Below, piece after piece: positions 21,428-41,695 of a stretch of 41,790 bases of DNA. This DNA comes from an uncultured Bacteroidales bacterium (GTDB lineage: Bacteria; Bacteroidota; Bacteroidia; Bacteroidales; WCHB1-69), in the NCBI GenBank assembly GCA_900315705.1, contig ONAB01000025.1, positions 1 to 41,790 on the forward strand, read 5' to 3'. Both the position numbers and the translations under genes were made by a program. The notes under the pieces are model-generated. The model worked only from the letters and a program-made list of their open reading frames with translations. It searched no databases and had not been told where the DNA came from. Each line of letters starts with the position of its first letter. The first letter of the stretch is position 1.

Positions 21428-21476
21428 AGACTTAAGATTTAAGACTTAAGACTTTTTCGTAAATCGCAAATCGTAT
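21428..21476. repeat. Heptamer array 1
   Basis: Seven consecutive 7-base units in perfect phase: four of the AGACTTA type (21428-21455) followed by three of the ATCGTAA type (21456-21476). It begins 8 bases after the stop of the CoA transferase gene. The rest of the 297-base gap (21477-21717) holds a promoter and a long leader. Confidence 0.85.
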
Positions 21477-21554
21477 CATTATCGAAAGGTAATAGCTATC
21501 GGCCAATTACTATTTTTTTTTCATTTTCCACTTTTCTTTTTCAAAAAAATATAA

Positions 21555-21562
21555 TACTTTTG
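21555..21562 (+). promoter_or_regulatory. -7 box for the 1876-residue adhesin gene
   Basis: TACTTTTG fits TAnnTTTG. It predicts a 5' leader of about 150 bases before the ATG at 21718. The leader contains a TTCCTT/AAGGAA hairpin (21591-21608) and a TTCTC/GAGAA hairpin (21632-21645). Confidence 0.6.
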
Positions 21563-21717
21563 TGGCCTACTTTTCAGCTTGGGCACATTGTTCCTTTTTT
21601 TGAAGGAATCCTCGTTTCCCCAATGGAAGTATTCTCGGTGGAGAAGGCTCTTTGTCGGGTGTATTAAGGAAATAATAATGGCAAAACAATAATTAGTAAC
21701 AATAAATACATAGAACT

Positions 21718-24700
21718 ATGAAAAAAATCTTCTTCCTTTTTGCTGTTTTAGTAGTAGGAATGTGGTCATTGTCGGCACAATCCACTTGCCCGGCACCTGC
21801 ATCAATGAATGCGATAATGCACTATCCTTCCTGGAATAGTGTCCGGTTGCAGTGGGAGGCGGCGCCCGATCCGACCCAATCGGAAATCAAGTGGTCCACC
21901 AACACGATGGGCACGCGCATCGGTCTCGCCACGGGCCCTGTGAACTTGACAGGTGCAGTCCGGTTTGAGACCTCCGACCTGACCGCCTACAACCACCATT
22001 CCATCACAGCAGTGAGCTTTGTTCCGGGCGGACCCGCACAGGGCGAACCGCGGCCCGACTGCCAATATACCGTCAAGATCTGGCGCGGCGGCAGCCACGG
22101 CTCCTCCTATAATGCCGGCACACTGGTATATAGCAAGGTTGTAACCCAAGAGCTGACGGAAAATAGCCTTAACACTGTGCTGTTGGACAGCGCGGTGGCC
22201 ATCAATCCCAACCAGGAGTTGTGGATTGGCGTGCAGTGCGTGACTACTACCACGGATCCGGCCTATCCGTTGGGTGCCAGTGCCAACACTACAGTGGCTG
22301 GCAAGGGCGAACTGCTCAACCTCGGCTCCTCCTGGATGACCCTGACCCAAGGGGGCCTGAGCGACTACAACTGGATTATCATCGGCACGGTGACCGACAA
22401 CGACCATATCGTGGACGGATACAACGTATATCGTGACGATGTCCTCCTCACCTCCTCCCCACTGTCGGCTTACAGCTATGCCGAAACCGTCACCAACGGC
22501 ACGTACCATTATGCGGTGACAGCCGTGTACCGCACGGGATGCGAGTCGGATTCCGTCACCGCAACGGTGACAATGGGCGACAACCCCTGCTTCGACTGTA
22601 TGGACAGTGTCTTTGTGAGCAACGGCAACACGAACTCCTACCGTCTGCCGACCAGCACCTATTACGCCTATTCCTACAGCCAGCAGATTTACAACGCTTC
22701 CGAAATAAGCCGCATCAATGGTAAAATCAACTGTATCTCGTTCCAATATATCAACCCCACGCCGCAATTCCGCCAAATTAAAATATACCTTGCCAATACG
22801 GCCAAGAACTCTTTCGCCAACGGTTCCGACTGGGTGCCTATGAGCGATATGACCCTTGTGTATGACGGCGCACTCTATCTCCACAACGGCGGTCCCAACT
22901 ACTGGATCAACGTTCCCTTGAACCAACCGTTTGAATGGAACGGCAGCGACAACATCGTGGTGGCACTTTTGGACAACACGGGGCATAACACGACCAGCAC
23001 GTCCAATACCTTCTACGTGCATTCTATCTCCAACAGATCTATCTATACCCAGAACACCACCACCCCCATTGAACCGATGGGAGGTTCCTACAGCGGAACT
23101 ATGGGCACAGTCAGAAGCAATATCCGCTTTATGCTGGGTGATTCCATCACTTGTGTAATGCCTTCGGCACTCCAAGTGAACGAAATCTCCGAAAACAGCG
23201 CGACGGCCAGCTGGATTCCCCGTGGTGGCAGCAACAACTTTGACGTGGTGCTGGTGCCTGAGGGCAGCGCCCTGGAGAATGAGGGTATGCAAACCGTGAC
23301 CGATACCTTCTTCTTGATGCAAGGTCTGACAGAAAACACACACTACACCCTCTATGTGCGGAGCAACTGCGGCGGCGAGACCAGTTCTTGGAACTCCGTC
23401 TCATTTGTCACCAACTGTCTGCCGTATAATGCATTGCCGTATGTCGAAAACTTTGAAGGCATCGGCTATGGCACCGATGTGATGCCCGACTGCTGGTTGA
23501 AGAGCACGACCTTGAACAGTGTGGCCTATGTGGAGGAAGACGACGACACAAGCCATCATTGCCTGTATATGTACTCCTACGCCAACGCTCCTGCCTATGC
23601 GGTGCTTCCCGCTGCCGACCCTTCCATTGACCTCGGCACGCTCCAGGTGCGCTTCAAGCTGCTCAAGACCTCCGCGTCTTACGGCAACATCGAGGTGGGC
23701 TTGATGACCGACCCGCGCGACATCTCCACCTTCGTGTCCGTGAAGAGCATCAGTGGCAGCCAACTTGCCAACAATAACACTTGGTATGATTTCATCGTTT
23801 ATCTGACAGGTTTCTCCAATGCCGGCCGCTATATCGCCTTCAAATCCCCCGACCTTTTCGCCAACTATGTGTATTTGGACGATGTGGAGGTGAATATGAT
23901 TTCTGGCTGCGGTCTGCCCACCAACTTGCAGGTGGCTTCCACTTCGGGCACGGCAGCCCTTCTCACTTGGCAACCCGGCGACCTGTCGGATGTCAGCGAC
24001 CTCTTCAATGTCGAGTATTCGATACAGGGTCTGGACAGCTGGCAGACGCAGACCACGCAGGGGAACCAGCTCTTCCTCTCCGGTTTGGATCCGCTGACGC
24101 ACTATGATGTGCGCTTGTATGTGACGTGCGACAATGGCGTGAGTGACACTCTGTTCGCCACATTCTCCACCCGCTGCATTGCCGGTGGTGACATCAGCAT
24201 CGGCAGTGGCACTACCACCTCCTCCTATCTGCCTTCTTACAGTTTTTATAATTATAGTTATTCGCAACAGGTGTATCTGGCTTCCGAACTGGGTGGCCCC
24301 AACACCTTCCATTCCATCTCCTTCAACTGCAGTTCCCTCTCCTCCAGTCCCACCCGTGACTATAACATCTACCTGATGCACACGAACGAAACCTCTCCCG
24401 CCACAGCTTGGCTGCCCGCCGACTCGGCAAAGCTGGTTTATACTGGTAACGTGACCTGGCATACGGGCTGGAATGTCATTGATTTCGACAGTCTGTTCGA
24501 ATATGACGGCGTCAGCAACCTTGCCTTGCTGGTGTTGGACAACACGGGCAGCTATGTGGGTACCAACACCTTCTACACCCATTCTTCCACGGGAGTGTCA
24601 CGTTATGTGTACAATGATGGTTCGGCCTACAACCCGATGAATATGTCCTCCACGGGCTACACCACCTCTTATCGTGACAACATCGTACTGGGCGGTCACT

Positions 24701-27348
24701 GCGACAGCGTGGTGGTCTGCGTGCCTCCTATGGTGGTGGTCAATAATGTAACTCCCCACACGGCACAAGTGCGCTGGGCTCCGGGTTATCAGGAAGATTC
24801 CTGGGTTATGGACTACAAGATGGAGAACGACTCGGTGTGGACCTCTTTGGGTACACAGAGCAACACATCCTACTCGTTCGCCAACCTGCTGGCCTCCAAC
24901 ACCTACAAGGTGCGTCTGCGCAGCATTTGCGGCGACAGCACCAGCGCCTACACACAAGTCTCATTTGACACAGAATGCGAATATCAAGACACCCTTCCGC
25001 TGATGGAGAACTTCGACCAGATCAGCTCTACGGGTACAGCCGCTTATCCTGATTGCTGGAAACGTCTGTACACCAGCACTAGCGCATACCCGTACGTCAG
25101 TTCCTCGTATGCATTGTCGGGCAACCGCGCCCTGTATGTCTATAACGGCGGCACCGCAAACTACGCCATTGGGGTTATGCCTCGTCTGGGCGACGCCATC
25201 GCGATGGACAGCCTGCGCATCTCCTTCTACACACGCAGCACCTCCACCACCGCGGTGATGGAAGTGGGTGTGATGAGCGACCCCAACGATGCCGCCACCT
25301 TCACCACGTTGGAGATTCTGCGCCCCAGTTCCACTACAGATTGGGAGAGCCGTGAAATCATCACCCGCTCATACAGCGGTACCGGACATTATATTGCCTT
25401 CCGTATGCCGATGGGCGCCTCTGGCAATATGTATGTGGATGACATCACGATTGACTATCTGCCTGAGTGTATGCACGTGATGAACCTGCAGGCCGTGGAG
25501 GTGGACAGCGCCAGCGCCCGCATCGTGTGGAGCCCTGGCCGCGACGAGATGGACTGGCAGCTGGTGGTTCTTCCCACCACCACCGACAGCGTGGACCTCG
25601 ACACTTGCGTCACCTTCTATCCCACAGAAGCCTCCTACTTCCTTGACCAACTCACTCCGGTGACCAATTACACGGTCTATGTGCGAGCCAACTGTGGCAG
25701 CAGCTTCAGCGAATGGGAAACTGTCCAGTTCACGACCACACAGACCCCGGCGTTTCTGCCGTATGTCTGTACCTTTGAAACCGACCCGCACAACTGGGCA
25801 CTCGTCAACGGCACCTGCACCAATGGCTGGTATGTGGACACGGCCGCCAACAACGGCGGTTCGCGCTCCCTTTACATCTCCAACGACGGCGGCCAGACCA
25901 ATGCCTATTCCTCTCCGGCCTGCTACGTGTGGGCATATCGCGACATCTATTTCCCCGCCAGCCCCAATGGGTATGAGTTCTCGTTCGACTGGCACTGCCT
26001 GGGTGAATCTTCCCTTGACTATGTGGAAGTCTATTTTGGCGATCCTGTGGCCCCCACGGCCGGCACGTCGCTGATAGTGCCCGCCGGCGCCACCTCCATT
26101 ACGGGTAAATTGAACCAGAGCAGCACTTACCAGATGTACACCACCATCTTGCCCGGCAACGCCACGGGAGGCATCAAGCGTCTCTACTTTATGTGGCATA
26201 ACGACGGCAGCATAGACAACAACCCGCCCGCCGCTATCGACAACATCACCTTAGACCTTATGAATTGTCCCGCGCCGGTCAACGTGTACGCCTATAACGT
26301 CACCGCCAACTCGGCAGTGGTGGATTGGGCCGAAACGGGCAACGCCACCCACTGGAACCTCTACTACAAGAGTGCTGCCGCCACCAGCTGGACGATGGTG
26401 CAAGATGCTCAACGTCCTTATACCCTTACCAACCTGTCGGAAGGCACCACGTACAGCATCTATGTGGAAGCCCTTTGCGACCCGGTCGCCAACACGACAA
26501 GCCAGGCCTCTTTCAACAACACCTTCACCACGCCGTTTGCTTGTCCGCAACCCACAGGCATCGTGGTTTCCAACATCACGGATAACAGCTTTACAGTCAA
26601 CTGGACCCCTGCCGGCAGCGAGACCCAATGGACGGTGGCCTACAGAGTGAACACCGCCTCCACCTGGACAGAGGTGCCCGCCACAGGCCATCCTTACACC
26701 ATTACGGGACTGACAGGCTCCACCACTTACAATGTGCGCGTGAAAGCTAACTGCAGCTCCACCGAGGAGAGCCAATGGACGGAATACAGCCAGGGTGTTG
26801 TGACGCAGACAACACCGTGTCCTGCTCCCACCAATGTCACAGTGACGAATGTCACCGCCCATTCGGCGGATATCAGCTGGATACAGGCCGACAACACCGC
26901 CAATGCTTGGCGTATTTCCTACAGAAAGTTAGGTCTGACGTGGGATACGGTGGATGTGAACACCCCCTCGTATAGTTTCACGAATTTGGAGGCCACTTCA
27001 CGCTACGTGGTAAGAATCTACGCCAACTGCGGCAACAACAACTTCAGCAATGCATCTGTGACCACCTTCACCACTTTGGAGGATCAGGACACCACCGGTA
27101 TTGTGGATTATCTCGAACAGATCATAACGGTATACCCGAACCCGACGGATGGGAAGATTATGGTGCAGAACAGCCACTCCCTGATTCAGGATGTGGAGGT
27201 TTATGATGCCTTCGGCAAGATGCTGTTTGCCAACAAGGTGAATGACAACACGGCGATGCTGGATATGACAGCTTATGCTGCCGGTATGTACTTCGCCCGC
27301 ATTTCCACCTCGGAGGGTGTGATTACCAAACGTTTTATTAAGAAATAA
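21718..27348 (+). CDS. Giant T9SS adhesin-like protein with fibronectin III repeats
   Basis: An 1876-residue surface protein with a signal peptide (residues 1-20). About eight fibronectin III-like domains each begin with a Cys-x-x-Pro type start (for example CPAPTNVTV near 1701, CPQPTGIVV near 1609). Between them lie three gingipain-type adhesin or MAM-like sandwich modules (LPYVENFEGIG near 573, LPLMENFDQ near 1094, LPYVCTFETD near 1347) and two copies of a Tyr-rich module with YSYSQQ (near 318 and 840). Only the second fibronectin part of each kind is well conserved. The last 75 residues form a type A T9SS sorting domain (ITVYPNPTDGKIM, VEVYDAFGKM, GMYFARIST). It probably acts outside the cell in attachment or polysaccharide contact. 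The CoA-disulfide reductase gene starts 15 bases downstream. Confidence 0.93.
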   Translation: MKKIFFLFAVLVVGMWSLSAQSTCPAPASMNAIMHYPSWNSVRLQWEAAPDPTQSEIKWSTNTMGTRIGLATGPVNLTGAVRFETSDLTAYNHHSITAVSFVPGGPAQGEPRPDCQYTVKIWRGGSHGSSYNAGTLVYSKVVTQELTENSLNTVLLDSAVAINPNQELWIGVQCVTTTTDPAYPLGASANTTVAGKGELLNLGSSWMTLTQGGLSDYNWIIIGTVTDNDHIVDGYNVYRDDVLLTSSPLSAYSYAETVTNGTYHYAVTAVYRTGCESDSVTATVTMGDNPCFDCMDSVFVSNGNTNSYRLPTSTYYAYSYSQQIYNASEISRINGKINCISFQYINPTPQFRQIKIYLANTAKNSFANGSDWVPMSDMTLVYDGALYLHNGGPNYWINVPLNQPFEWNGSDNIVVALLDNTGHNTTSTSNTFYVHSISNRSIYTQNTTTPIEPMGGSYSGTMGTVRSNIRFMLGDSITCVMPSALQVNEISENSATASWIPRGGSNNFDVVLVPEGSALENEGMQTVTDTFFLMQGLTENTHYTLYVRSNCGGETSSWNSVSFVTNCLPYNALPYVENFEGIGYGTDVMPDCWLKSTTLNSVAYVEEDDDTSHHCLYMYSYANAPAYAVLPAADPSIDLGTLQVRFKLLKTSASYGNIEVGLMTDPRDISTFVSVKSISGSQLANNNTWYDFIVYLTGFSNAGRYIAFKSPDLFANYVYLDDVEVNMISGCGLPTNLQVASTSGTAALLTWQPGDLSDVSDLFNVEYSIQGLDSWQTQTTQGNQLFLSGLDPLTHYDVRLYVTCDNGVSDTLFATFSTRCIAGGDISIGSGTTTSSYLPSYSFYNYSYSQQVYLASELGGPNTFHSISFNCSSLSSSPTRDYNIYLMHTNETSPATAWLPADSAKLVYTGNVTWHTGWNVIDFDSLFEYDGVSNLALLVLDNTGSYVGTNTFYTHSSTGVSRYVYNDGSAYNPMNMSSTGYTTSYRDNIVLGGHCDSVVVCVPPMVVVNNVTPHTAQVRWAPGYQEDSWVMDYKMENDSVWTSLGTQSNTSYSFANLLASNTYKVRLRSICGDSTSAYTQVSFDTECEYQDTLPLMENFDQISSTGTAAYPDCWKRLYTSTSAYPYVSSSYALSGNRALYVYNGGTANYAIGVMPRLGDAIAMDSLRISFYTRSTSTTAVMEVGVMSDPNDAATFTTLEILRPSSTTDWESREIITRSYSGTGHYIAFRMPMGASGNMYVDDITIDYLPECMHVMNLQAVEVDSASARIVWSPGRDEMDWQLVVLPTTTDSVDLDTCVTFYPTEASYFLDQLTPVTNYTVYVRANCGSSFSEWETVQFTTTQTPAFLPYVCTFETDPHNWALVNGTCTNGWYVDTAANNGGSRSLYISNDGGQTNAYSSPACYVWAYRDIYFPASPNGYEFSFDWHCLGESSLDYVEVYFGDPVAPTAGTSLIVPAGATSITGKLNQSSTYQMYTTILPGNATGGIKRLYFMWHNDGSIDNNPPAAIDNITLDLMNCPAPVNVYAYNVTANSAVVDWAETGNATHWNLYYKSAAATSWTMVQDAQRPYTLTNLSEGTTYSIYVEALCDPVANTTSQASFNNTFTTPFACPQPTGIVVSNITDNSFTVNWTPAGSETQWTVAYRVNTASTWTEVPATGHPYTITGLTGSTTYNVRVKANCSSTEESQWTEYSQGVVTQTTPCPAPTNVTVTNVTAHSADISWIQADNTANAWRISYRKLGLTWDTVDVNTPSYSFTNLEATSRYVVRIYANCGNNNFSNASVTTFTTLEDQDTTGIVDYLEQIITVYPNPTDGKIMVQNSHSLIQDVEVYDAFGKMLFANKVNDNTAMLDMTAYAAGMYFARISTSEGVITKRFIKK

Positions 27349-27363
27349 TAAGAGTAATATAGA

Positions 27364-29043
27364 ATGAAATATGTGATTGTGGGCGGCGTCGCGGGAGGCG
27401 CTTCCGCTGCCGCCCGCCTGAGAAGGCTCAATGAAGATGCGGAGATCGTCCTTTTTGAAAAGGGCGAGCATATCTCCTACGCCAATTGCGGTTTGCCCTA
27501 TTATATCGGCAACACCATCGAGGAGCGCAAAAAACTGTTTGTGCAGACTCCCGTCTCTTTTGGAAACCGCTACGATGTGGATGTGCGCACACTCAACGAG
27601 GTGACGGCCATCCACCGCGACCGGAAGGTGGTGGCGGTGAAGAACTTGCACAATGGCAAAGAGTATGAGGAGCGGTACGACGTGCTGCTGCTCTCACCGG
27701 GTGCCCTGCCAGTGGTGCCGCCCGTGCCGGGCGTTGACCTGCCCAATATCTTCACCCTGCGCAATGTGGCCGACTGCGACCGCATCAAGGCGCAAGCGGT
27801 GCAGTTGCTGGAGGAACAGGCCGAAGCGGTTATCGTGGGCGGTGGCTTCATTGGCTTGGAGATGGCCGAAAACCTTCAGAAAATCGGCTATAAAGTGACC
27901 ATCGTGGAGAAAGCCCCCCATATTCTGACTCCCCTTGATTGGCCGATGGCCGCCATCGTGCAGCAGCACCTCTCCGAAAAGGGAGTGCGCGTGCTTGCCG
28001 GCAATGGACTGGCCGCTTTTGAGGAGCGCGACAGCAAACTGCACGTGATTCTCGAAGACGGCACGAGTCTGCCCTGCCAACTGGCCATCCTCAGCATCGG
28101 CGTGCGCCCCAACGTGCAGCTGGCCCGCGAGGCCGGACTGGCCATCGGCGAGGCCGGAGGCATCTCCGTCAACCAGTACCTGCAAACCTCCGACGAGAGC
28201 ATCTACGCCGTGGGCGACGCTATCGAGTTCCCGCATCCTGTCACGGGAAAGCCCTACTGCAACTTCCTGGCCGGTCCCGCTAACCTGCAGGCGCGTATCG
28301 TGGCGATGAATATGGCTTACCCCGAAAGCACGCCCTATATGGGCTCTGTCGCTACCGCCATCGCCAAGGTCTTCGACCTTACCGCCGCCAGCACAGGCCT
28401 CTCCGAGGCTGCCCTGCAGAGAGCCGGCATCTCTTTCCAAACCGTCATTGTGCACCCCGCCGCACACGCCACCTACTACCCCGGCGGCAGCCCGATGTCA
28501 CTGAAACTCAACTTTTCCCCGGAAGACGGGCAGGTGCTGGGCGCCCAGGCCGTGGGCAAGATGAACGTGGACAAGCAAATCGACGCCATCTCCCTGCTGC
28601 TCAAACACAAGGGCACCATCTATGATCTCATCTACAGCGAACACGCCTACGCGCCGCCCTACGCCTCAGCGAAGAGTCCCGTGATGTTCGCCGGTATGGT
28701 GGCCGAAAACATTATGGCCCACCTGATGAACCCCATACAAGCCGCTGATTTAGACCAGCTTATTGATAGCGGTGAGGAGTTCCAGCTGCTCGATGTGCGC
28801 GAAATCAAGGAGTTCAAGAGCGGCACCATCCAAGGGGCCGAGAACTATCCCGTGGACGAGCTGCGTGAGTTTCTGGAAGACATTCCCCAGGACAAGAAGA
28901 CCGTGGTCTTCTGCGAAGTGGGACTCAGAGGCTATGTGGCCTCCCGCATCCTGATGCAGTCCGGCTTTGAGAATGTCTATAACCTCATCGGCGGTATGCG
29001 TACCTACCGACTGGTGGGCAAACACAATGTAAAACCCCAATAG
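27364..29043 (+). CDS. CoA-disulfide reductase with C-terminal rhodanese domain
   Basis: A 559-residue flavoprotein. The N-terminal FAD domain has GGVAGGASAAARL (7-19) and the single active-site Cys42 in YANCGLPYYIG, typical of CoA-disulfide reductases. The NAD(P) motif is VGGGFIGLEMAENL near 158-171. The pyridine-nucleotide dimerisation domain follows, and then a fused rhodanese domain (about 460-555) with catalytic Cys517 in FCEVGLRG. Such fusions reduce CoA disulfide or CoA persulfide, and can also reduce polysulfide. It belongs to thiol redox balance in the cytoplasm. QueD follows 7 bases after its stop. Confidence 0.92.
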   Translation: MKYVIVGGVAGGASAAARLRRLNEDAEIVLFEKGEHISYANCGLPYYIGNTIEERKKLFVQTPVSFGNRYDVDVRTLNEVTAIHRDRKVVAVKNLHNGKEYEERYDVLLLSPGALPVVPPVPGVDLPNIFTLRNVADCDRIKAQAVQLLEEQAEAVIVGGGFIGLEMAENLQKIGYKVTIVEKAPHILTPLDWPMAAIVQQHLSEKGVRVLAGNGLAAFEERDSKLHVILEDGTSLPCQLAILSIGVRPNVQLAREAGLAIGEAGGISVNQYLQTSDESIYAVGDAIEFPHPVTGKPYCNFLAGPANLQARIVAMNMAYPESTPYMGSVATAIAKVFDLTAASTGLSEAALQRAGISFQTVIVHPAAHATYYPGGSPMSLKLNFSPEDGQVLGAQAVGKMNVDKQIDAISLLLKHKGTIYDLIYSEHAYAPPYASAKSPVMFAGMVAENIMAHLMNPIQAADLDQLIDSGEEFQLLDVREIKEFKSGTIQGAENYPVDELREFLEDIPQDKKTVVFCEVGLRGYVASRILMQSGFENVYNLIGGMRTYRLVGKHNVKPQ

Positions 29044-29050
29044 AGTTGCT

Positions 29051-29470
29051 ATGATTCTGCTTACCAAGCATTTTGATTTTGAGATGGCGCACGCCTTGAT
29101 GGGCTATCCTGGCAAATGCCGCAACATCCACGGCCACTCCTACAAGATGGAGGTCACCGTGACGGGTGAAATGCAACCCGACACGGGGATGGTGATGGAT
29201 TTCAAAGCACTGAAAGACCTTGTCAACGATATTATAGTCAACAAATTAGACCACGCGCTGGTACTCTCCGACCAGGTGGACCACACCTTGATTGAGACCT
29301 TGCGCGCCCATTACGACAAGATTGTGCTTTTCCCCTTCCAGCCCTCCACCGAGAATATGCTGGCCCATTTTGCCACCCTCTTGCGGCCCCAGTTGCCCTC
29401 CAACGTGCGGCTCTATTCCATCCGTCTTCACGAGACTGACACCTCCTTTGCCGAGTGGCGCGAGGAGTGA
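29051..29470 (+). CDS. queD: 6-carboxytetrahydropterin synthase QueD
   Basis: A 139-residue protein of the PTPS/QueD family. Zinc ligands His14, His27 and His29 are present (EMAHAL and CRNIHGHSY), with catalytic Cys23, Asp67-His68 (LDHAL) and substrate-binding Glu101 and Glu128 (RLHETDTSFAEW). The Cys-x3-His-Gly-His spacing fits the QueD type rather than the eukaryotic PTPS. It converts dihydroneopterin triphosphate into carboxytetrahydropterin on the path to queuosine. No other queuosine gene (queC, queE, queF) is in the window, so it must act with genes elsewhere. Confidence 0.93.
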   Translation: MILLTKHFDFEMAHALMGYPGKCRNIHGHSYKMEVTVTGEMQPDTGMVMDFKALKDLVNDIIVNKLDHALVLSDQVDHTLIETLRAHYDKIVLFPFQPSTENMLAHFATLLRPQLPSNVRLYSIRLHETDTSFAEWREE

Positions 29471-29505
29471 AACAATCAAAGATTAATTTTTATAAAACCT
29501 TATAT

Positions 29506-30992: not shown

Positions 30993-31007
30993 AACACAAA
31001 AAACAAT

Positions 31008-32120: not shown

Positions 32121-33238
32121 GCGAACAACATCTGCATATAGTCTCTTTCGACGTGCCCTGGCCCGCCAACTACGGTGGCGTCATCGACGTGTTTCATCGC
32201 GCCCGCACCCTCACGGAGATGGGTGTGAAGGTGCACCTGCACTGCTTTGAGTATGGGCGCGGCGAGCAGGAGGCCTTGAACTTTTGCCACGAGGTGCACT
32301 ATTACAAGCGCGACACCTCGCTGTGGCGGCAGTTCAGCCGCAGACCCTATATTGTAGCCTCCCGCTATTCGGAACAGCTTGTAAAAGAGTTGCTTAAAGA
32401 CGATTACCCTGTCTTGTGCGAGGGCCTCCACACGGCAGCCTTGCTGGAGGAGGAGCGGCTGCGCGGGCGGGCCATCTATGTGCGGATGCACAATGTGGAG
32501 CACGACTATTATCGGCTGCTGGGACAGGCGGAGAGGAGCTGGTGGAAACGCTTGTACTTCTATTCGGAAGCCCGCAAGTTGGAGCGCTATGAGAAGATTT
32601 TGTCCCGCGCCACCGGTATTTTCGCCGTCACTGAGAAGGATGCGGCCAGTCTGTCGGCGCGCTATGCCAATGTCATCCTGATGCCCTCCTCCTGTGCCAA
32701 TGACGAGGTCACCGCATTGCCCGGCACGGGCGAATATGTGCTCTATCACGGCAATCTTTCAGTGAGGGAAAACGAGGAGGCCGCTATGTGGCTCTTGGAT
32801 AACGTGTTCTGTCGCCTTAAGGTGCCGTGCATCATCGCAGGGCTGCGCCCGTCAGAGAAATTGGCCAAGCGTGTGGCTGCCCTCCCCAATGTGACTCTTC
32901 GGGCCGATTTGCCCGACAGGGAGATGCGGGAGTTGATTCGCCAAGCTCAGGTCAACGTGTTGGTGACCCATCAGCCTACCGGATTGAAACTCAAACTGTT
33001 GAACGCACTCTATCAGGGACGGCACTGCGTGGTGAATGAGGAGATGGTGGCGGGCACCCCGCTGGGCTCATTATGTACGGTGGCGGATGACGGTCCCTCT
33101 TTGGCTTCTGCCATCGAGCACCTTTGGTCCAACCCCTTCACGGAAGAGGAATTACAACGTCGCCAACAGGCAATGTCGGCGCTTTACGACACCAAAGCGA
33201 ATGCGAAAAAGTTGATGAAGTTTGTCTTTGGCCGTTAG
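32117..33238 (+). CDS. Glycosyltransferase family protein
   Basis: A 373-residue protein with the GT-B outline: an N-terminal part opening with HIVSFDVPWPANYGG, where a glycine-rich donor-entry loop lies, a middle MHNVEHDYY near 135, and a C-terminal half with VLYHGNLSVRENEEAAMWL near 208 and LLNALYQGRHCVV near 293. The classic E-x7-E motif of many GT4 enzymes is weak here. It overlaps the preceding glycosyltransferase by 4 bases, so the two are made together. Its stop codon TAG (33236-33238) is followed by heptamer array 2. Confidence 0.88.
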   Translation: MSEQHLHIVSFDVPWPANYGGVIDVFHRARTLTEMGVKVHLHCFEYGRGEQEALNFCHEVHYYKRDTSLWRQFSRRPYIVASRYSEQLVKELLKDDYPVLCEGLHTAALLEEERLRGRAIYVRMHNVEHDYYRLLGQAERSWWKRLYFYSEARKLERYEKILSRATGIFAVTEKDAASLSARYANVILMPSSCANDEVTALPGTGEYVLYHGNLSVRENEEAAMWLLDNVFCRLKVPCIIAGLRPSEKLAKRVAALPNVTLRADLPDREMRELIRQAQVNVLVTHQPTGLKLKLLNALYQGRHCVVNEEMVAGTPLGSLCTVADDGPSLASAIEHLWSNPFTEEELQRRQQAMSALYDTKANAKKLMKFVFGR

Positions 33239-33263
33239 CCTTTGGTTATTAGCTATACGATTT

Positions 33264-33354
33264 GCTAAAGTCTTACGTCTTACGTCTAAAGTCTTACGTC
33301 TTAAGTCTCAAGTTTCAAGTCTAAAATCGTAAATCGCAAGTCGCAAATCGTCCT
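33264..33354. repeat. Heptamer array 2
   Basis: Thirteen consecutive 7-base units in one unbroken phase: eight mostly of the TCTTACG, TCTAAAG and TCTCAAG type (33264-33319), one junction unit TCTAAAA, then four of the TCGTAAA or TCGCAAG type (33327-33354). Further words before 33264 (such as ACGATTT at 33257-33263) keep a 7-base spacing. The array fills most of the gap between the second glycosyltransferase and comEC. Confidence 0.85.
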
Positions 33355-33368
33355 ATCATTTTTTTTCC

Positions 33369-33376: not shown

Positions 33377-33385
33377 TGAAAATGA

Positions 33386-35452: not shown

Positions 35453-35467
35453 GGAAATAATCAACCG

Positions 35468-36418
35468 CTAAAGGCTATTGGCAAACAGCTTCATTATTTT
35501 CTCGTACGCAACCTTGGCGTGCCGCAGTTCAGCGTCGAGGGTTTGCCCGCCCACGTGCGGGGTGAGGATGACATTTTCCATAGCGGCCAGGGCGTGCATT
35601 GCTTCCGGCCACTCCTGCTTGGGCAGGTTTTGGAGCCGCGTGTTCTCGTATTCGAGCACGTCGAGGGCTGCGCCGAGTACCTTTCCGCTTTGCAAACCGC
35701 GTGCCAAGGCAGCGCAATCCACCACCAACCCGCGCGAGCTGTTGAGCAGCAGGAACGGGTGCGGCATCCGGGCTATGAACTCCTCGTTGATGAGATGGAA
35801 ATTGTCAGGTATATAGTTGACGTGGAGGGAGATGACATCGCATTGGGCGCAGAGTTCTTCCAACGTGACCATCGTGGCATTCTTGTCGCCGGCATTGGGA
35901 TTGTAGCGGTCGTAGGCATATACCTTGCCGCCGAGGGCTGTGAGCAGGCGGGCAAAGGCGGGCCCTGTATGGCCGTAGCCGATGAGTCCGTAGGTGTGCG
36001 ACGACAATTCGGTGCCCTTGTTCTTCTCGCGCAGCCATTCGCCGGCCCGCACCTCCGTGTTGGCGGCGGGGATGTGGCGCAGGAGGCCCAGCAGCAGGCC
36101 GAGGCAATGCTCCGCCACCGCGTGGGCGTTGCCCTCCGGCGTGGATATCACCCGTATGCCCCGCGACTCGGCGTAGGCGACGTCAATGTTCTCCACGCCC
36201 GCCCCGATGCGCACAATGAAACGCAACGACGGCTTGGTGTCAAGAAGCGCCTGGTCCACCACAAAGCGGCTGCGAATCACCAGGCCGAACAGATTGTCCG
36301 GCCTGGCGCAGAATTGTTCGTAAGTCTCTGATAGGTTGGTGGTGCAGTCAAACCCCTGTGCCTGAAGTTGCTCCGACAGGTAGGGGTGGACGCGGTCCAC
36401 GATGAGGATGCTGGCCAT
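35468..36418 (-). CDS. NAD-dependent D-isomer-specific 2-hydroxyacid dehydrogenase
   Basis: A 316-residue dehydrogenase of the 3-phosphoglycerate dehydrogenase group. The NAD fold starts LIGYGHTGPAFARLL (145-159), with Asp170 at the end of the second strand (YAYDRY), which favours NAD over NADP. Catalytic residues are Arg229 (NSSRGLVVD), Glu256 (LDVLEYEN) and His288 (LTPHVGGQT). There is no C-terminal ACT domain, and the length is that of short SerA-like enzymes or of glyoxylate/hydroxypyruvate reductases, so the substrate stays open. Its ATG overlaps the stop of the upstream OYE-family gene by one base (TAATG), suggesting a shared path. Confidence 0.9.
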   Translation of the reverse strand: MASILIVDRVHPYLSEQLQAQGFDCTTNLSETYEQFCARPDNLFGLVIRSRFVVDQALLDTKPSLRFIVRIGAGVENIDVAYAESRGIRVISTPEGNAHAVAEHCLGLLLGLLRHIPAANTEVRAGEWLREKNKGTELSSHTYGLIGYGHTGPAFARLLTALGGKVYAYDRYNPNAGDKNATMVTLEELCAQCDVISLHVNYIPDNFHLINEEFIARMPHPFLLLNSSRGLVVDCAALARGLQSGKVLGAALDVLEYENTRLQNLPKQEWPEAMHALAAMENVILTPHVGGQTLDAELRHAKVAYEKIMKLFANSL

Positions 36419-37671
36419 TAGTGGTTGTCCCTTTCGACGTTTTTCTCCAGTTTTTCAATCTCCCGTTGCAGTCTGGCGGGCAGTTCGTTCTTCTCCATAC
36501 ACTGGTGGCATTTCATATCCAGCGTGTACATACGGCCGATGCAGTAGTTGGAGTGTTTGCAGCCGCTGCGGGTTACCTCACCCGACTGGAGCTTGTTGAC
36601 GAAGTTGGTGTCCTGAATCAGGGCGCGGGCCATCTGGAAGGCTACGAAGCCGGAGTTGAGCACCTTCTCCATATTATCCTTGTCCACCATACCGCCCACA
36701 TAGATGAGGGGCATCTTCACGGCCTGGCGGAACTTCATTGCGGTGTCGTAGAAATAGGCGTCCTTGTAGGGGACGGTGGGGATGACGATGCGGCCGCCGA
36801 TGTTGACGCCGAATTTCAGCCACCAGAATTTCTTCATATCCATATAGTGGGCCATCGCCTTGAGGGGCATTGCGCCGTGCATCACCTCCATAGGGGCTTT
36901 GCTGACGAAGCCGGCGGTGAGCACGAGGGCGTGCACGCCGAGGCGCTCCAATTCCTGGGCCACCTTGATGCACTCGTCCACCTGCATACCGCTGCGGAAA
37001 CCGTCGTACATATTGGTTTTCACCACGATGGCCATATCGTCCTTGGCCTCTTCCATCACGCGGGTGATGACGCGGCGCATAAAGCGCATACGGTTTTCCA
37101 GCGAGCCGCCGTACTCGTCTTTGCGGCGGTTGGTGTAGGGCGAGAGGAACTGGCTGATGAAGTAGCCGTGGCCGGCGTGCACTTCAATGCAGTCGAAGCC
37201 GGCGCGGCGGCAGAGGTCCACGGCTTTGCCGAAGTCCTCCACAATCTGGTCGATTTCGGGGATGGTGATCTTCTTGGTGAAGGTGGGCGAATAGAGGTTG
37301 AAGCGGCCTGACGGGGAGAAGGGCTTCTGTCCGCAGGTGGCGCGGTGCGTCATATTGCCGCAGTGGCCGATCTGGATGGAGGCCTTGGCCCCTTCCGCGT
37401 GGATGGCGTCGGTCAGCTTTTTGAGCTCCGGTACAATCTCCTCGCGCAACCACAGCTGGCCGTCGAACGAGAGTCCGCTGCGACTGACGGAGGCGTAGGC
37501 CACCGTGGTCATACCGATACCGCCCTTGGCAACGGCGGTGTGGTAGTTGAACAGTTCTTCCGTGGGTCTGTTGCCGTGGGCCATATTTTCAAAGGCCGCG
37601 GAACGGATGGTGCGGTTGCGAAGGGTAATCGGACCGATCTGACAAGGGGTAAAGATGATAGATTCAGACAT
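36418..37671 (-). CDS. NADH:flavin oxidoreductase (old yellow enzyme family)
   Basis: A 417-residue TIM-barrel flavoenzyme. Diagnostic stretches are IQIGHCGNMTHR near 102 and the barrel end FDCIEVHAGHGYFISQFLSP near 164-183, followed by TNRRKDEYGG. After the barrel it has four Cys (371, 377, 388 and 391), resembling the region that binds an iron-sulfur cluster in 2,4-dienoyl-CoA reductase relatives. The spacing differs from the usual CxxC pattern, and the C-terminal FAD/NADPH domains of those enzymes are missing. It therefore looks like a single-module reductase of an alkene or enone substrate. Only 12 bases separate it from tatD. Confidence 0.87.
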   Translation of the reverse strand: MSESIIFTPCQIGPITLRNRTIRSAAFENMAHGNRPTEELFNYHTAVAKGGIGMTTVAYASVSRSGLSFDGQLWLREEIVPELKKLTDAIHAEGAKASIQIGHCGNMTHRATCGQKPFSPSGRFNLYSPTFTKKITIPEIDQIVEDFGKAVDLCRRAGFDCIEVHAGHGYFISQFLSPYTNRRKDEYGGSLENRMRFMRRVITRVMEEAKDDMAIVVKTNMYDGFRSGMQVDECIKVAQELERLGVHALVLTAGFVSKAPMEVMHGAMPLKAMAHYMDMKKFWWLKFGVNIGGRIVIPTVPYKDAYFYDTAMKFRQAVKMPLIYVGGMVDKDNMEKVLNSGFVAFQMARALIQDTNFVNKLQSGEVTRSGCKHSNYCIGRMYTLDMKCHQCMEKNELPARLQREIEKLEKNVERDNH

Positions 37672-37683
37672 TTTGTATAATTT

Positions 37684-38460
37684 TTAATTAGATAATCTTT
37701 TGAAAATGTTCAAGGCGTTGGCGGTGGTTTGCTCCATCACGGTTTTCACGGAGGTGTCGAGCAGTTCGGCAATCTTCTGGGCAATGAGCGGGATGTAGGC
37801 GCTCTCGTTGGGCTTGCCGCGGTGGGGTACAGGCGCCAGATAAGGGGCGTCCGTCTCCAAGACGAGATGTTGCAGCCCGATTTGTTTCACGATTTCCTGT
37901 ATCTTGCTGTTCTTGAAGGTCACAATGCCGCCGATGCCGAGGGCAAAGCCGTGGTTTACAGCCCATTGTGCCTCCTGAATGCCGCCCGAGAAGCAGTGCA
38001 TCACGCCCGTGAGCTCGCCCGCCTTGAACTCCTGGAGGATGGAGATGGCCTCCGCGTAGGCGTTGCGGATGTGCAGCGACAGCGGCAGCTTGTGGTCGCG
38101 GGCCCATACCAGTTGCCGGTGGAAGGCCTCTTTCTGCTCCGCCTCGAACTCGCGGCTCCAGTAGAAATCGAGCCCTATCTCACCGATGCCCACCACGTTG
38201 GGGTCGCCGATGTGCGGTTCCAGCAGGGCCAGTTCCCGCTCAAAGTCGGGACGGGTCTCTTCGGGATGCAGCCCCACCAAGGCGAACATATTGTCGGGAA
38301 ACAACGCCACTGCCTCTTGGATCTGGGGCAGGGTGGCGCTCTCCACACAACCCAATATCATCTGGGTGACATTGGCATCCACGGCACGCCTTACCACCTC
38401 CTCGAAGGTTTCGGGGTAGTATTCGCGGTAAAGGTGGGTGTGGGTGTCTATATAATGCAT
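37684..38460 (-). CDS. tatD: TatD family metal-dependent DNase
   Basis: A 258-residue TatD-type hydrolase with all metal ligands: His7 and His9 (DTHTH), Glu94 (GEIGLD), His130 (LSLHIRN), His155 (MHCFSGG) and Asp204 (ETDAPYL). TatD proteins are 3'-5' exonucleases acting on DNA or RNA ends during repair or turnover. The gene has its own promoter (38482-38512) inside the 3' end of the preceding HAD gene and leads the group tatD, OYE-family reductase and hydroxyacid dehydrogenase. Confidence 0.95.
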   Translation of the reverse strand: MHYIDTHTHLYREYYPETFEEVVRRAVDANVTQMILGCVESATLPQIQEAVALFPDNMFALVGLHPEETRPDFERELALLEPHIGDPNVVGIGEIGLDFYWSREFEAEQKEAFHRQLVWARDHKLPLSLHIRNAYAEAISILQEFKAGELTGVMHCFSGGIQEAQWAVNHGFALGIGGIVTFKNSKIQEIVKQIGLQHLVLETDAPYLAPVPHRGKPNESAYIPLIAQKIAELLDTSVKTVMEQTTANALNIFKRLSN

Positions 38461-38481
38461 CTTTTTTCAGAAAAACGGCTG

Positions 38482-38512
38482 CAAAAATATAAAAAAGTAT
38501 GGTTATATCAAA
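38482..38512 (-). promoter_or_regulatory. Promoter of the tatD group
   Basis: On the minus strand TTTG (38512-38509) and TATTTTTG (38489-38482) are separated by 19 bases, a full Bacteroidota promoter. The -33 box lies inside the last codons of the upstream HAD gene, so this is an internal promoter. Confidence 0.75.
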
Positions 38513-39150
38513 GCAAGAATCTCTTCAGGTTTGGAAATGATGTATTCCGCGTGCTCGCCTTCCAGTTCTTCGCGGGTGCGGTAGCCCCAGAGCACTCCCA
38601 CGGCCTCCACGCCTGCGCGGTGGGCCGTCATCATATCCACGTTCGTGTCGCCCAAATAGAGCGTCTCCTCCGGTGTGCATCCCGTTTCGGACAGGATGTC
38701 ATACACCACCTGCGGGTCGGGTTTCACGGGAATGCCCTCGCGCTGCCCGATGAGGGCGGCAAACTGAATCATAGGGAAATAGTCGGTCATCAGCGGGGAG
38801 ACGGCCGTCTGCACCTTGTTGGTGGCCACGGCTATTTTTATGCCACGCTGTTGCAGCTCCTCCAGCACTTCGGAGATGCCTGGATAGACGGTGGTCTTGT
38901 CATACATATGGATGCTGTAATAGGCCTTGAACTCCTGCAGGCAGGTTTCGTGCATCTGTCCGGTCTTGTAGCCATCGGGCAGGATGCGGCGGATGAGTGT
39001 GGGCATTCCGTCGCCCACAAAATAGCGGTAGGCATCCACCGGGTGGGTGGGAAACCCGTGGCAGGTCAGGATGTGGTTGGCCGAGTCGGCAAGGTCCACC
39101 AGACTGTTGAGCAGGGTGCCGTCCAGATCGAAAATAAGCAGTCTCTTCAT
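38503..39150 (-). CDS. HAD-family phosphatase (phosphoglycolate phosphatase-like)
   Basis: A 215-residue HAD hydrolase with the normal motifs: I, DLDGT with Asp8 and Asp10; II, VATNK near 108-112; III, VKPDP near 142; and IV, LGDTNVDM near 166. The cap domain (about 15-85) is a C1 helical cap, as in Gph and pyrophosphatase PpaX. Phosphoglycolate is the most likely substrate by similarity of the motifs, but many HAD enzymes are broad. It is the last gene of a minus-strand group, 12 bases after rfbC. Confidence 0.88.
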   Translation of the reverse strand: MKRLLIFDLDGTLLNSLVDLADSANHILTCHGFPTHPVDAYRYFVGDGMPTLIRRILPDGYKTGQMHETCLQEFKAYYSIHMYDKTTVYPGISEVLEELQQRGIKIAVATNKVQTAVSPLMTDYFPMIQFAALIGQREGIPVKPDPQVVYDILSETGCTPEETLYLGDTNVDMMTAHRAGVEAVGVLWGYRTREELEGEHAEYIISKPEEILALI

Positions 39151-39162
39151 TGGCGGGCGGAA

Positions 39163-39732
39163 TTATTGCGGCAGAACGTACGACTCGTAGTCGAAAGGTG
39201 ACACAAAGTCGCGGAAAGCCATCCCCTGCAGGTCTTTGGCCGAGGTGAGCGGGTTCTCCACCTGCCAGTCGATGCGCAGATTGGGATCGTCGAAACGAAT
39301 GCTGGCCTCGGAAGCCTTGTTGTAGAAGTTGGAGCACTTGTAGGCGAAGAGGGTGTTGTCTTCCAGGGCGGAGAAGCCGTGGGCGAAGCCGGCGGGGATG
39401 TAGAACTGGGTGAAATTCTCGGCACTCAGCAGTACGGAGTAATATTGGCCGTAGGTAGGACTGCCCCGGCGGATATCCACGGCAAAGTCGATGGCCGAGC
39501 CTTGCAGGATGCGCACCAGTTTGGCCTGTGCATACGGAGGCTTCTGGAAATGGAGTCCGCGCACAACGCCTTTCTGGGAACACGACTGGTTGTCCTGCAC
39601 CCAATGCTCGCGGATGCCGAGCTCAGCCAGCGTCCGCTCATTGAAGCTCTCGAAAAAATAGCCGCGATCGTCTTTGAAGACATCGGGCTGGAGAATGGCA
39701 AGGCCGTTGATGGGCGTGCGGGTTATTTTCAT
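39163..39732 (-). CDS. rfbC: dTDP-4-dehydrorhamnose 3,5-epimerase
   Basis: A 189-residue cupin epimerase of usual length. Catalytic His61 sits in RGLHFQ, and Tyr131 in LFAYKC is the other active-site residue. DFAVDIRRGSPTYGQ near 82-96 and PAGFAHGFSAL near 113-123 are family motifs. It makes dTDP-4-dehydro-L-rhamnose, the third step of dTDP-rhamnose synthesis for surface glycans. The other three rfb genes are not in the window. It lies 36 bases after the ClC gene. Confidence 0.95.
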   Translation of the reverse strand: MKITRTPINGLAILQPDVFKDDRGYFFESFNERTLAELGIREHWVQDNQSCSQKGVVRGLHFQKPPYAQAKLVRILQGSAIDFAVDIRRGSPTYGQYYSVLLSAENFTQFYIPAGFAHGFSALEDNTLFAYKCSNFYNKASEASIRFDDPNLRIDWQVENPLTSAKDLQGMAFRDFVSPFDYESYVLPQ

Positions 39733-39768
39733 AGAATGTATTTGCTTTTTAAGGTGTTATCAAAAAAA

Positions 39769-41556
39769 TCAGTCATCGGATTCCGCAGCGATGAAATGCT
39801 GGTATTTGGCCAAAAAGCGGGCCTTCGACAGGAATCCGAGGTAGGTGCGTTCGTGGTCGATGACCGGCATATTGAAGTTGCCGGTGCGGTTGAATTTCTC
39901 AAGGACAGTGCTGGCCGTGTCGTCGTCATAGATGAACTCCTCTGGTTCGATCATCAGGTCCTCGACGTGCACGAGGTCGTACAGTTCCTGGCGGAAGATG
40001 ATGTCGCGGTGGTCATCCATCACGAGCAGGCCTGCGAAGTGGTTGTTGTCATCGGTCACCACGAAGAGGTTGCGTTTGCAATTGGCGATGCACTGGGTGT
40101 AGGCGCGCAGGTTGCTGTGCGCGGGCACGGTGCTGATGTTGTGGTCAATGATGTTGTGCCAGTCCAGTTTCCGGAGGGCGAACTTGTCCTTGTTGTGGGT
40201 TTTGAGGTTGCCCTTCTCGGCCAAGGGGCGGGTATAGACGGAGTATTTCTCGAAGGGGTTGACGCAGAGGTAGGAGCAGGCGGCGGTGATCATCAAGGGG
40301 ATGAGCAGGGTGTAGCCGGTGGAGAGCTCCGCGATGAGGAACATCGCCGTCATCGGGGCCTGCATCACGCCGGTCATCACGCCCGCCATTCCCGCCAAAA
40401 TGAAGTTGACGTAGGGCAGATGGAAGCCGAACAGGTTGTTGGCCACCCCCGCCACGAAGAAGCCCGTGAAGGCGCCGATGAAGAGGGTGGGGGCGAACAC
40501 GCCGCCGATGCCGCCGGCGGAGGTGGTGAAGGTGGTGGCAAACACCTTCATCAGGATGATGCCGATGAGTCCGAGCAGGAAAATCAGCTGGCTGGAGCAC
40601 CAGGCGTTCAGGGGCGAACCGGCGAAGAGATTCTGGTAGTTGCCGTTGATGAGCATATTGATGTTGTCGTATCCTTCGCCGTAGAAGACGGGGAAGAGAT
40701 AGATGAGGCCGCTGAGCATCACACCGCCCACGATGGCGCGCACATAGACCTTCTTGATGCGCTTTATCTGTTTCTCAATCCATCGCGACACGCGCAGGAA
40801 ATAGACGGAGATAAGTCCGGTGAGCAATCCGAGGATGATGTAGAAGGGGATGTTGCTGAGGTGGAAGGCCTGGGTGCTGCTGATGTGGAACATCACATCA
40901 TTGCCGAGGAAGAGGAGCGACATCACGGTGCCCGTGGCGGCGGAGAGCAGCAGGGGCAGGATGGCGCTGCCGGTGAGGTCGAGCATCAGCACCTCGAAGG
41001 TGAAGACGATGGCGGCGATGGGGGCCTTGAAGATGGCGGCCATCGCGGCGGCCGAGCCGCAGGCCAGCAACAGAGTGGTCTGCTTGGCGTTCAGCCTGAA
41101 AAACTGGGCCACGTTGGAGCCTATGGCCGAGCCCGTCAGCACAATGGGGGCCTCCAGTCCCACCGAGCCGCCGAACCCGACGGTGATGGCACTCGACACC
41201 ATTGAGGAATAGACGTTGTGGAAGCGCAGCTTGCCGTCGCTCTTGCAGATGGCCTTGAGCACGATGGAGACGCCGTGGCCGATATTGTCGCGCACCACGC
41301 GCCGCACGAACAGCAGCGTGAGCAGGATGCCGAAGATGGGCAGGATGAGATAGAGGTAGTTGACCTGCGCGTTGGGGAAGGCCCTTCCGAGCGCTTGTGT
41401 GGTGAGGTGTACGAGGTTCTTGATAATCACAGCGGCGGCAGCACCCAGAATGCCGATCAAGACACTGAGGATGATCACTGTGGTGCGTGTGCTGAAATGC
41501 CGTGTAAAGAAGCGGCGCACCTTGACCAGATTGCGCAAAAATCTCCTTTTTTTCAT
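39769..41556 (-). CDS. ClC-type chloride channel/transporter with CBS domains
   Basis: A 595-residue membrane protein with about ten or more helices over residues 25-430 and two C-terminal CBS-like domains (from about 470). ClC motifs: GFGGSVGLEAPIVLTGSAIG holds the gating Glu, with Ala where most have Gly in GxEGP. GIGGVFAPTLFIGA corresponds to the GxFxP motif. The first motif reads GHGVSIV instead of GSGIP. It may be an H+/Cl- antiporter or a channel; the sequence does not decide. The -7 box TATCTTTG at 41582-41575 precedes the ATG by 18 bases. It is the first gene of the group with rfbC and the HAD phosphatase. Confidence 0.92.
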   Translation of the reverse strand: MKKRRFLRNLVKVRRFFTRHFSTRTTVIILSVLIGILGAAAAVIIKNLVHLTTQALGRAFPNAQVNYLYLILPIFGILLTLLFVRRVVRDNIGHGVSIVLKAICKSDGKLRFHNVYSSMVSSAITVGFGGSVGLEAPIVLTGSAIGSNVAQFFRLNAKQTTLLLACGSAAAMAAIFKAPIAAIVFTFEVLMLDLTGSAILPLLLSAATGTVMSLLFLGNDVMFHISSTQAFHLSNIPFYIILGLLTGLISVYFLRVSRWIEKQIKRIKKVYVRAIVGGVMLSGLIYLFPVFYGEGYDNINMLINGNYQNLFAGSPLNAWCSSQLIFLLGLIGIILMKVFATTFTTSAGGIGGVFAPTLFIGAFTGFFVAGVANNLFGFHLPYVNFILAGMAGVMTGVMQAPMTAMFLIAELSTGYTLLIPLMITAACSYLCVNPFEKYSVYTRPLAEKGNLKTHNKDKFALRKLDWHNIIDHNISTVPAHSNLRAYTQCIANCKRNLFVVTDDNNHFAGLLVMDDHRDIIFRQELYDLVHVEDLMIEPEEFIYDDDTASTVLEKFNRTGNFNMPVIDHERTYLGFLSKARFLAKYQHFIAAESDD

Positions 41557-41574
41557 CTGTCAGAAACGAGAGCG

Positions 41575-41582
41575 CAAAGATA
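41575..41582 (-). promoter_or_regulatory. -7 box for the clc-rfbC-HAD group
   Basis: TATCTTTG on the minus strand fits TAnnTTTG. No TTTG is seen at the usual distance upstream. Confidence 0.55.
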
Positions 41583-41604
41583 CACAATTTTGCGATTGTA
41601 TCAT

Positions 41605-41695
41605 AGACCGCAGACCGGAGACCGAAGACCATTGACCGTAGATCATTTTCGTAAGTCGTACGTCGTAAATCGTAAATCGTAAATCGTACATCGTC
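41605..41695. repeat. Heptamer array 3
   Basis: Thirteen 7-base units: six of the AGACCGA type (41605-41646), then TTTCGTA and six of the AATCGTA or CGTCGTA type (41654-41695). Three AATCGTA units in a row are identical. It lies upstream of the ClC gene, on the far side of its promoter. Confidence 0.85.

Follow-up and report, generated by a model that had tools for sequence, protein, structure and literature searches.

Ordered arrays of degenerate heptanucleotide repeats between genes of an uncultured Bacteroidales bacterium

Introduction

Heptamer repeats of cyanobacteria are known as short tandemly repeated repetitive (STRR) sequences, and bacterial interspersed mosaic elements (BIMEs) is a name used beside that of the repetitive extragenic palindromic (REP) elements. 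Both are close to the subject of this paper, three intergenic arrays of degenerate 7-base units in a stretch of 41,790 nucleotides (contig ONAB01000025.1 of assembly GCA_900315705.1, hereafter the window) from an uncultured Bacteroidales bacterium of the WCHB1-69 lineage, and the population to which these arrays belong. The arrays form a genuine variant of heptanucleotide simple repeats, with a structure of its own and specific to the lineage. It has a 7-base period, an intergenic location, a polar order of blocks, an anchoring at stop codons, a fixed orientation around a REP-like palindromic core, and words that change at fixed sites.

Heptamers have been recognized as a favoured repeat unit in bacteria, with slippage proposed (Mrazek et al. 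2007, as told in PMC4679880). Bacteroidetes with heptamer assemblages are also described in PMC4679880, and a restriction to Bacteroidales, considered after an earlier note on this DNA, is not supported. Heptanucleotide long simple sequence repeats (LSSRs) and the cyanobacterial heptamers (PMC4679880 and PMC4692102, both in excerpt) resemble the present arrays in the preference for a 7-base unit, the patchy distribution among species, and the slippage proposed there, whereas here the units are degenerate, many words coexist, and the blocks follow one order. As in LSSRs and STRRs, the 7-bp period exceeds other lengths and shuffled sequences and the arrays are mainly intergenic, but no single uniform word fills an array: units of the window arrays match at period 7 by 81–90%, and several words occur in phase. 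Because of this lack of one uniform word, we regard the arrays as a variant within the LSSR/STRR class. The long uniform unit runs of phase-variable contingency repeats are likewise missing in the window, where the units are degenerate.

The TAACTGA repeats (MacGregor 2015, PMC4679880), for which a role as binding sites of a DNA- or RNA-binding regulator has been proposed in Beggiatoaceae, are also intergenic heptamers present in some Bacteroidetes; other heptamers accompany them there, and relatives have orthologous spaces free of repeats. According to the excerpted text, they consist of one word located mostly just upstream of starts in the main genome, while here many words are found, more often behind stops. 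The GGGAATC repeats of Xanthomonas (PMC4692102, in excerpt) similarly lie near and partly over stop codons, occur at genes other than surface genes as well, and show length and sequence variation where the flanking genes are the same. They differ in being a single G-rich word with quadruplex potential, generally without association with mobile elements, and the excerpt of PMC4692102 was found to describe no block order, whereas the blocks are ordered here. REP elements with their REP-associated tyrosine transposases (RAYTs; PMC3733652, in excerpt) share with our case short dispersed intergenic palindromes, represented here by the core with its 39 sites, and Y1 transposase genes with adjoining palindromes; the difference is that here heptamer arrays border the palindromic core. 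The heptamer kind and the placement at stop codons are already known, and the block order, the compound with a REP-like element, and the word turnover at fixed sites are new. In the literature searched, some of it accessible as excerpts, no description was found of a polar multi-word order, of a compound of two blocks with a core between them, or of a genus-wide turnover of words.

Genome-Wide Population and Block Order

The genome comprises 2,995,600 bases in 47 contigs. The sample taken from it consists of 20 stretches (359 kb), 13 of them picked around hits to the B word (see below) and seven making up the whole contig C6; together with the window, it amounts to 400,836 bases. Genes were called by our own codon-score script and not by a standard gene finder. 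The words were grouped into classes E (AGAATTG-like), A (AGACNNN), O (octamer TAATCGYN), T (TAACCNN), C (TTAGCNN), and B (RTCGYAA), with a prime (A′, T′, O′) denoting the inverted orientation in block-order counts.

A genome scan for further arrays, on which the earlier note had made its element depend, found TCGYAARTCGYAARTCG 149 times without mismatch and the reversed pattern once; with up to one mismatch allowed, the counts were 265 and 1. In the sample and window, self-match segments numbered 85 at lag 7, with 61 at the harmonic lag 14, against 11 at lag 8, 2 at lag 6, 1 at lag 9, and none at lags 4, 5, 10, and 11. The unselected contig C6 (126,766 bases) contains 38 lag-7 segments, while 20 shuffles of it yielded none. 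The location is predominantly intergenic: 79 of the 85 lag-7 segments lie outside predicted genes, which cover 78.5% of the sequence, and when congeners are added, the figure is 220 of 238 arrays at a coding share of 82%. The longest B array of the sample (L049:7442–7607) exceeds 20 B units.

The blocks are arranged in a polar order. Among 35 pairs within 150 bp, A>B was observed 26 times, A′>B 3 times, B>A 4 times, and B>A′ twice, which excludes the random order of first and second blocks that the earlier note had considered as an alternative. When the 47 B blocks are read on the strand giving TCGYAA, 27 have another tandem word no more than 70 bp away on the 5′ side, and 3 have one at such a distance on the 3′ side. 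The limit to two blocks in the earlier note was too narrow, since more word classes enter the order, on smaller counts: within 150 bp, E>A holds for 9 of 9 pairs, E>B for 5 of 7, C>B for 3 of 3, A>T for 3 of 4, and A>O for 2 of 3, with T>B seen 7 times and T′>B 3 times, O>B 4 times and O′>B once, and O>T 3 times and O′>T twice. Contrary to the order are the pairs of E with T (0 of 2) and of A with C (0 of 1). The A>B, E>A, and T>B order rests on fair counts, and the places of O and C on few. Many arrays of the sample contain several in-phase words, and in L043:766–874 one word passes gradually into another in phase within a single array.

Under a stricter definition (gap of at most 30 bases), A>B is found at 19 distinct places of the genome (35 overlapping matches), at one place each in congeners G001 and G037, and nowhere in the other 38 congeners or in 295 other genomes of the phylum. 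The A>B pairing is, therefore, nearly species-specific.

Several arrays of other kinds were seen. Octamer arrays (TAATCGYN and CTTAATTT types) occur in L034, L035, L037, L043, L044, L045, L047, and L050, and it is because of them that period 8 ranks second in the sample. Long, telomere-like GGGTTAR/TAACCTY arrays, partly inverted and with a B block at the end, occupy L034:17848–18359. Inverted-repeat B arrays are present in L051, L054 (G033), L055 (G028), and L050:12286–12380, the last of which folds as a single strand into a strong hairpin (z −2.9) whose loop contains AGAC units.

Arrays of the Window

The three arrays reported in the earlier note are present in the window sequence at the positions it had given. 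At a score of at least 14, the window has four lag-7 segments (21420–21454, 33265–33350, 41605–41642, and 41649–41694), zero segments at lags 5, 6, 8, 9, 10, and 11, and zero lag-7 segments in 200 dinucleotide shuffles. The second block of array 1, a short one, scores lower and was detected by the pattern search; with up to 3 mismatches, the B word has 9 matches in the three arrays together against 0.06 expected. The parts of the arrays are as follows.

21428..21454, plus strand: array 1, first block, AGACTTA-type units, beginning 7 bp behind the stop codon at 21418–21420
21457..21477, plus strand: array 1, second block, TCGTAAA/TCGCAAA units; a T run joins the two blocks
33236..33256, plus strand: array 2, leading TTAGC-type units, with the stop codon TAG of the upstream gene (33236–33238) inside the first unit (by eye)
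33257..33265, minus strand: array 2, short inverted B piece ACGATTTGC, pairing with the B block in the single-strand fold (z −2.5)
33270..33322, minus strand: array 2, first block, GTCTTAC units, the reverse complement of the AGAC type and the minority orientation
33323..33354, plus strand: array 2, second block, RTCGYAA units, ending 32 bp before a ComEC-type gene
41590..41598, minus strand: array 3, short inverted B piece preceding the first block on its upstream side (by eye)
41605..41646, plus strand: array 3, first block, AGACCGN-type units
41649..41697, plus strand: array 3, second block, TCGTAAA units, with a one-base slip against the first block
about 41693..41721, plus strand: REP-like palindromic unit adjoining array 3 downstream (by eye; compare the palindromes beside the Y1 transposase gene of L330)

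In terms of phase (mod 7), array 1 has AGAY at 1 and TCG at 2, array 2 has GTCT at 6 and TCG at 0, and array 3 has AGAY at 4 and TCG at 6. The phases stated in the earlier note, the one-base slip in array 3, and the opposite strand of the first block in array 2 are borne out. The leading units and inverted B piece of array 2, and the inverted B piece and palindrome beside array 3, had not been mentioned in it. The leading TTAGC-type units of array 2 are of the same class as TTAGCTG arrays elsewhere in the sample. The gene upstream of array 1 encodes an acetyl-CoA hydrolase/transferase (Pfam). A hairpin as a property common to the three arrays was rejected, with fold z values of −0.4, −2.5, and +1.4, as was a known RNA family: Rfam at gathering scores found tRNAs only in the window, L033, and L034 (81,790 bases).

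Arrays and Gene Borders

In 151 spacers with arrays, 95 of 162 stop-codon borders lie within 10 bp of an array, as compared with 27 of 140 start-codon borders. An array overlaps the stop codon itself in 52 cases for 901 congener genes and in 27 for 279 genes of the own genome, the latter being partly selected. Independently of array calls, repeats of a gene's stop trinucleotide were counted at offsets of 3 to 28 nt behind it. At 7 nt it is repeated in 41 of the 901 congener genes and in 15 of the 279 own genes, and at the other offsets in 8 to 31 and 2 to 13 genes, respectively. Divergent spaces account for 3 of 48 spaces with arrays and for 28 of 180 spaces longer than 30 bp. The preference for stop-side over start-side borders and the scarcity in divergent spaces speak against a promoter element, and this candidate, which goes back to the earlier note's placing of the arrays next to promoters, was rejected. 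As to the surface or uptake genes named in that note, the window neighbours do include a secreted Fn3 protein and ComEC-type and ClC-type proteins (Pfam); a further gene pair that was looked up is folD/murG.

Period and Words in the Genus

Exact matches to the B word occur in 11 of 40 congeners. Lag counts and words were obtained for 32 of them, with G004, G007, G008, G017, G022, G029, G038, and G039 omitted, along with 60 kb of G036 (L065–L067; 1 lag-7 segment); the stretches lie around ComEC, murG and, in some genomes, B hits. Lag 7 again prevails with 153 segments (105 at the harmonic lag 14), followed by lag 8 with 31, lags 12 and 16 with 18 each, and lag 6 with 17. At least one lag-7 segment was found in 27 of the 32 congeners, and none in the 20–40 kb sampled from G002, G010, G024, G034, and G035. 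The words of the genus are diverse, with 108 distinct heptamers.

Their turnover can be followed in the folD–murG space. From 39 genomes with a murG match, 31 upstream stretches were read, the folD neighbour being recognized by eye except in the own genome, where both families were assigned by Pfam. A folD-like end precedes murG in 14 of the 31, and 9 of these 14 spaces bear arrays (score of at least 10), which represent five word groups over nine species: TTAGCTG plus TCGTAAA in the own genome, AATTAAC-like words in G013 and G025, ACGTCTC in G027, GAACTTT/GACTTTG-like words in G018, G019, and G011, and GTGAACA-like words in G012 and G015. In G020, this space has degenerate TTAGC units below the score, and in G023, G010, G005, and G022, no 7-base segment was found. 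In the close relatives G016 (L103) and G001 (L131), murG has a different upstream neighbour; in G016, an approximately 9-base repeat (ATTCGTGTA-like) and not a 7-base one lies upstream of murG.

A second site, L034:9825–10010, has a border sequence common to G001 and G020, behind which the phase of AGA is kept while the words read AGACGTT/AGACTTG in the own genome and AGAATTA (short) and AGAGTTA in the orthologs of G001 and G020. Other words in the same phase at the same sites mean that the period and the place outlast the word; the arrays also differ in length from species to species. The longest matched stretch between the own genome and G001 is 95% identical. Two other spaces proved unsuitable for a comparison of orthologs: the one upstream of ComEC, as the gene order is not kept, and L034:650–862, where the upstream neighbour differs in G001 and G020 (by eye).

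REP-Like Core and Y1 Transposases

At several places, about 80–130 bases with the motif CTTGAGCAG and two palindromes separate A from B. Searched irrespective of heptamers with up to 2 mismatches, the core motif occurs genome-wide at 39 sites, with 0 for the reversed control. Flanking words were read for 30 of the 39 sites: 19 have tandem AGAC no farther than 75 bp away on the 5′ side, 13 have B up to about 310 bp away on the 3′ side, and 10 have both. Neither inverted AGAC on either side, nor B on the 5′ side, nor inverted B on the 3′ side was found at these loci, the exceptions to the orientation being one inverted B on the 5′ side and one AGAC on the 3′ side. The exact junction AGACTTTC|CTTGAGCAG is present in 19 of the 30 loci, 18 of which coincide with the 19 having tandem AGAC. 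In core copies read by eye, GGTAG or CAGTAA precedes palindrome 2, which may correspond to the GTAG (or CGTC) foot next to the hairpin of REP elements. One core copy forms single-stranded DNA hairpins (z −2.6).

Eighteen core copies were examined in the sister species G001, G020, G016, and G023, including two truncated at contig ends. Sixteen have no lag-7 segment (score 10) on either side, and it follows that the core does not need heptamers; of the remaining copies, one has a lag-7 segment of another word on the 5′ side and one has B on the 3′ side. Among the 16, the G001 copy (L372) is orthologous to L034:9825–10010 and has short E-like and B-like units (by eye), so that at this one site the compound predates the split from G001. 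The A–core–B compound is far commoner in the own genome than in the sister species.

The genome contains five Y1_Tnp genes, and Pfam confirms the three that were rescanned. Four of them are listed with their surroundings.

L330, G000 C2:40277: Y1 transposase gene with palindromes on both sides (by eye) and a B array downstream
L331, G000 C6:17280: Y1 transposase gene with palindromes on both sides (by eye)
L332, G000 C35:3287: Y1 transposase gene with palindromes downstream only, where the second palindrome of the core recurs (by eye)
L333, G000 C20:23565: Y1 transposase gene with palindromes on both sides (by eye)

The flanking palindromes of L330, L331, and L333 are not those of the core as a whole. 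The palindromes beside these four genes look different from gene to gene.

Arrays in Other Phyla

Exact (TCGYAAR)3TCG arrays were found in at least 118 stretches of named genomes belonging, by record titles, to about a dozen phyla, so among the matches listed arrays of the B word are by no means a property of Bacteroidales only. Within the order, the B pattern occurs in 29 of 393 genomes, the own one included, and the reversed control in 8. From the 118 or more loci, all of them chosen by the B word, the 80 that were listed were analyzed and gave 192 segments at lag 7, 18 at lag 8, and 3 at lag 6. Polarity as a general rule of B arrays was rejected on these loci, where other words stand on the 5′ side of 21 and on the 3′ side of 12 of 119 B blocks, several being inverted B. 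On the reverse strand of L195 (5129–5202), from a metagenome-assembled genome of Pyrinomonadaceae (Acidobacteriota by title), AAGACCG is followed by TCGCAAA units a short way ahead of an apparent start codon; the two word types and their order are the same as in the own genome, and this may be chance.

Origin of the Arrays

On balance, it seems probable that the arrays are slippage-grown intergenic heptanucleotide repeats that drift in word, are tolerated at the 3′ ends of genes, and are partly dispersed with REP-like elements, the lineage being very rich in such repeats. Seeds would grow by 7-nt steps, presumably through slippage, in permissive DNA and chiefly right behind stop codons, and point mutation together with further slippage would alter the word while site, phase, and orientation are kept. 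Word change of this kind would account both for several in-phase blocks in one array and for other words in orthologous arrays. In the own species, the block series (E>A>B, partly with the REP-like palindromic core at the A/B border) was likely copied together with REP-like elements to many intergenic sites, the copies having probably travelled with REP-type elements that could be mobilized by a Y1 transposase (IS200-like, RAYT-like); we infer that dispersal was driven by the transposase.

Several observations weigh against this account. Copying has to be added to it because drift and slippage by themselves would not produce one block order dozens of times over. The core is absent from most arrays, and 16 of the 18 sister core copies have no lag-7 segment. 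Some of the 30 core loci neighbour one another (e.g., C27:5679, 5768, and 5982) and are not all independent, and the order of units across the 19 core-linked AGAC arrays is only weakly alike (0.585 vs. 0.565 when shuffled, p = 0.08). The one transposase gene whose flank matches the core (L332) has palindromes on one side only. The array densities of the sample are too high, being partly selected by B hits, and contig C6 and the window alone are unselected. Finally, 90 of the 108 words carry a stop trinucleotide on some strand, compared with 62 under the null.

The last point leads to a selected device of gene 3′ ends. As 7 leaves a remainder of 1 when divided by 3, any 7-base word with one stop closes all three frames, and the words would be free to change. 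TAA, TAG, and TGA rank as the first three of 32 trinucleotides in the genus words, the arrays abut stop codons (79 overlaps in total for 1180 genes), and the stop recurs 7 nt on as given above. Stops are denser in the arrays than in other intergenic DNA, where their number per 7 bp and strand is 0.32: the values are 0.71 on the sense and 0.58 on the antisense strand for the 129 arrays with one stop end nearby, and 0.60 and 0.47, respectively, for the 105 arrays located at none. This device is nevertheless unlikely. There is little strand bias: of 156 arrays in tandem-gene spaces, 94 close all three frames in the sense direction and 95 in the antisense direction, and although sense-rich arrays prevail at one stop end (67 vs. 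43, p = 0.03), they do so without a nearby stop end as well (56 vs. 37, strand as given). The words are related to one another, 107 of the 108 falling into a single-linkage family, so the counts are not independent and the stop excess cannot be separated from kinship; words from other phyla show a smaller excess (60 of 94 vs. 49); and a period of 5, 10, or 11 would serve equally, yet these are nearly absent. The inseparability from kinship, the near equality of the strands, and the weaker excess elsewhere are the reasons why the all-frame stop idea is kept as a rival.

If the blocks were instead parts of one mobile element resembling REPs or miniature inverted-repeat transposable elements, with A and B around the palindromic core, then core-less A–B arrays such as those of the window would be empty or excised sites. 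The fixed orientation with a 5′ junction that is exact at 19 of the 30 core loci, the same ends at junctions lacking the core (e.g., AGACTTTTTTCGTAA), the TTC that most of the 18 sister core copies show at their 5′ edge (by eye), two near-identical arrays 4 kb apart (L039:17253–17367 and L040:1458–1569), and the G001 ortholog with its E-like units, core, and B-like units are all consistent with such an element. Its 3′ junction with B varies, however, the great majority of sister core copies are free of lag-7 segments, most arrays have other words and no core, and 7-base arrays exist in many other phyla, which makes this explanation rather unlikely. Arrays of binding sites for a DNA- or RNA-binding regulator, by analogy with the proposal for TAACTGA in Beggiatoaceae, could explain a genome-wide, intergenic population with one preferred order, as well as the fact that, in the own genome, the final B unit of the murG array contains the start codon of that gene. 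A regulator of this sort is very improbable, given that the words differ between close species at the same site and that arrays are rarer at start-side borders and in divergent spaces. We would also mention, as a quite doubtful combination of these ideas, that the period and not the word is conserved: a lineage-wide process might rebuild word-free all-frame stop tracts on stop codons, and in one species the block series might have been captured at both ends of a palindromic element mobilized by a Y1 transposase and spread in fixed order.

Implications

For the preference of bacteria for 7-base repeats, the genus offers a natural experiment, with the same gene pairs in many species. Within it, the period is often present, the word changed, and the array anchored at a stop codon, and in one species the block order can be read as if it recorded how the arrays grew and were copied. 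Comparison of sequences in the genus thereby allows slippage, a selection for stops, and REP-like dispersal to be told apart.

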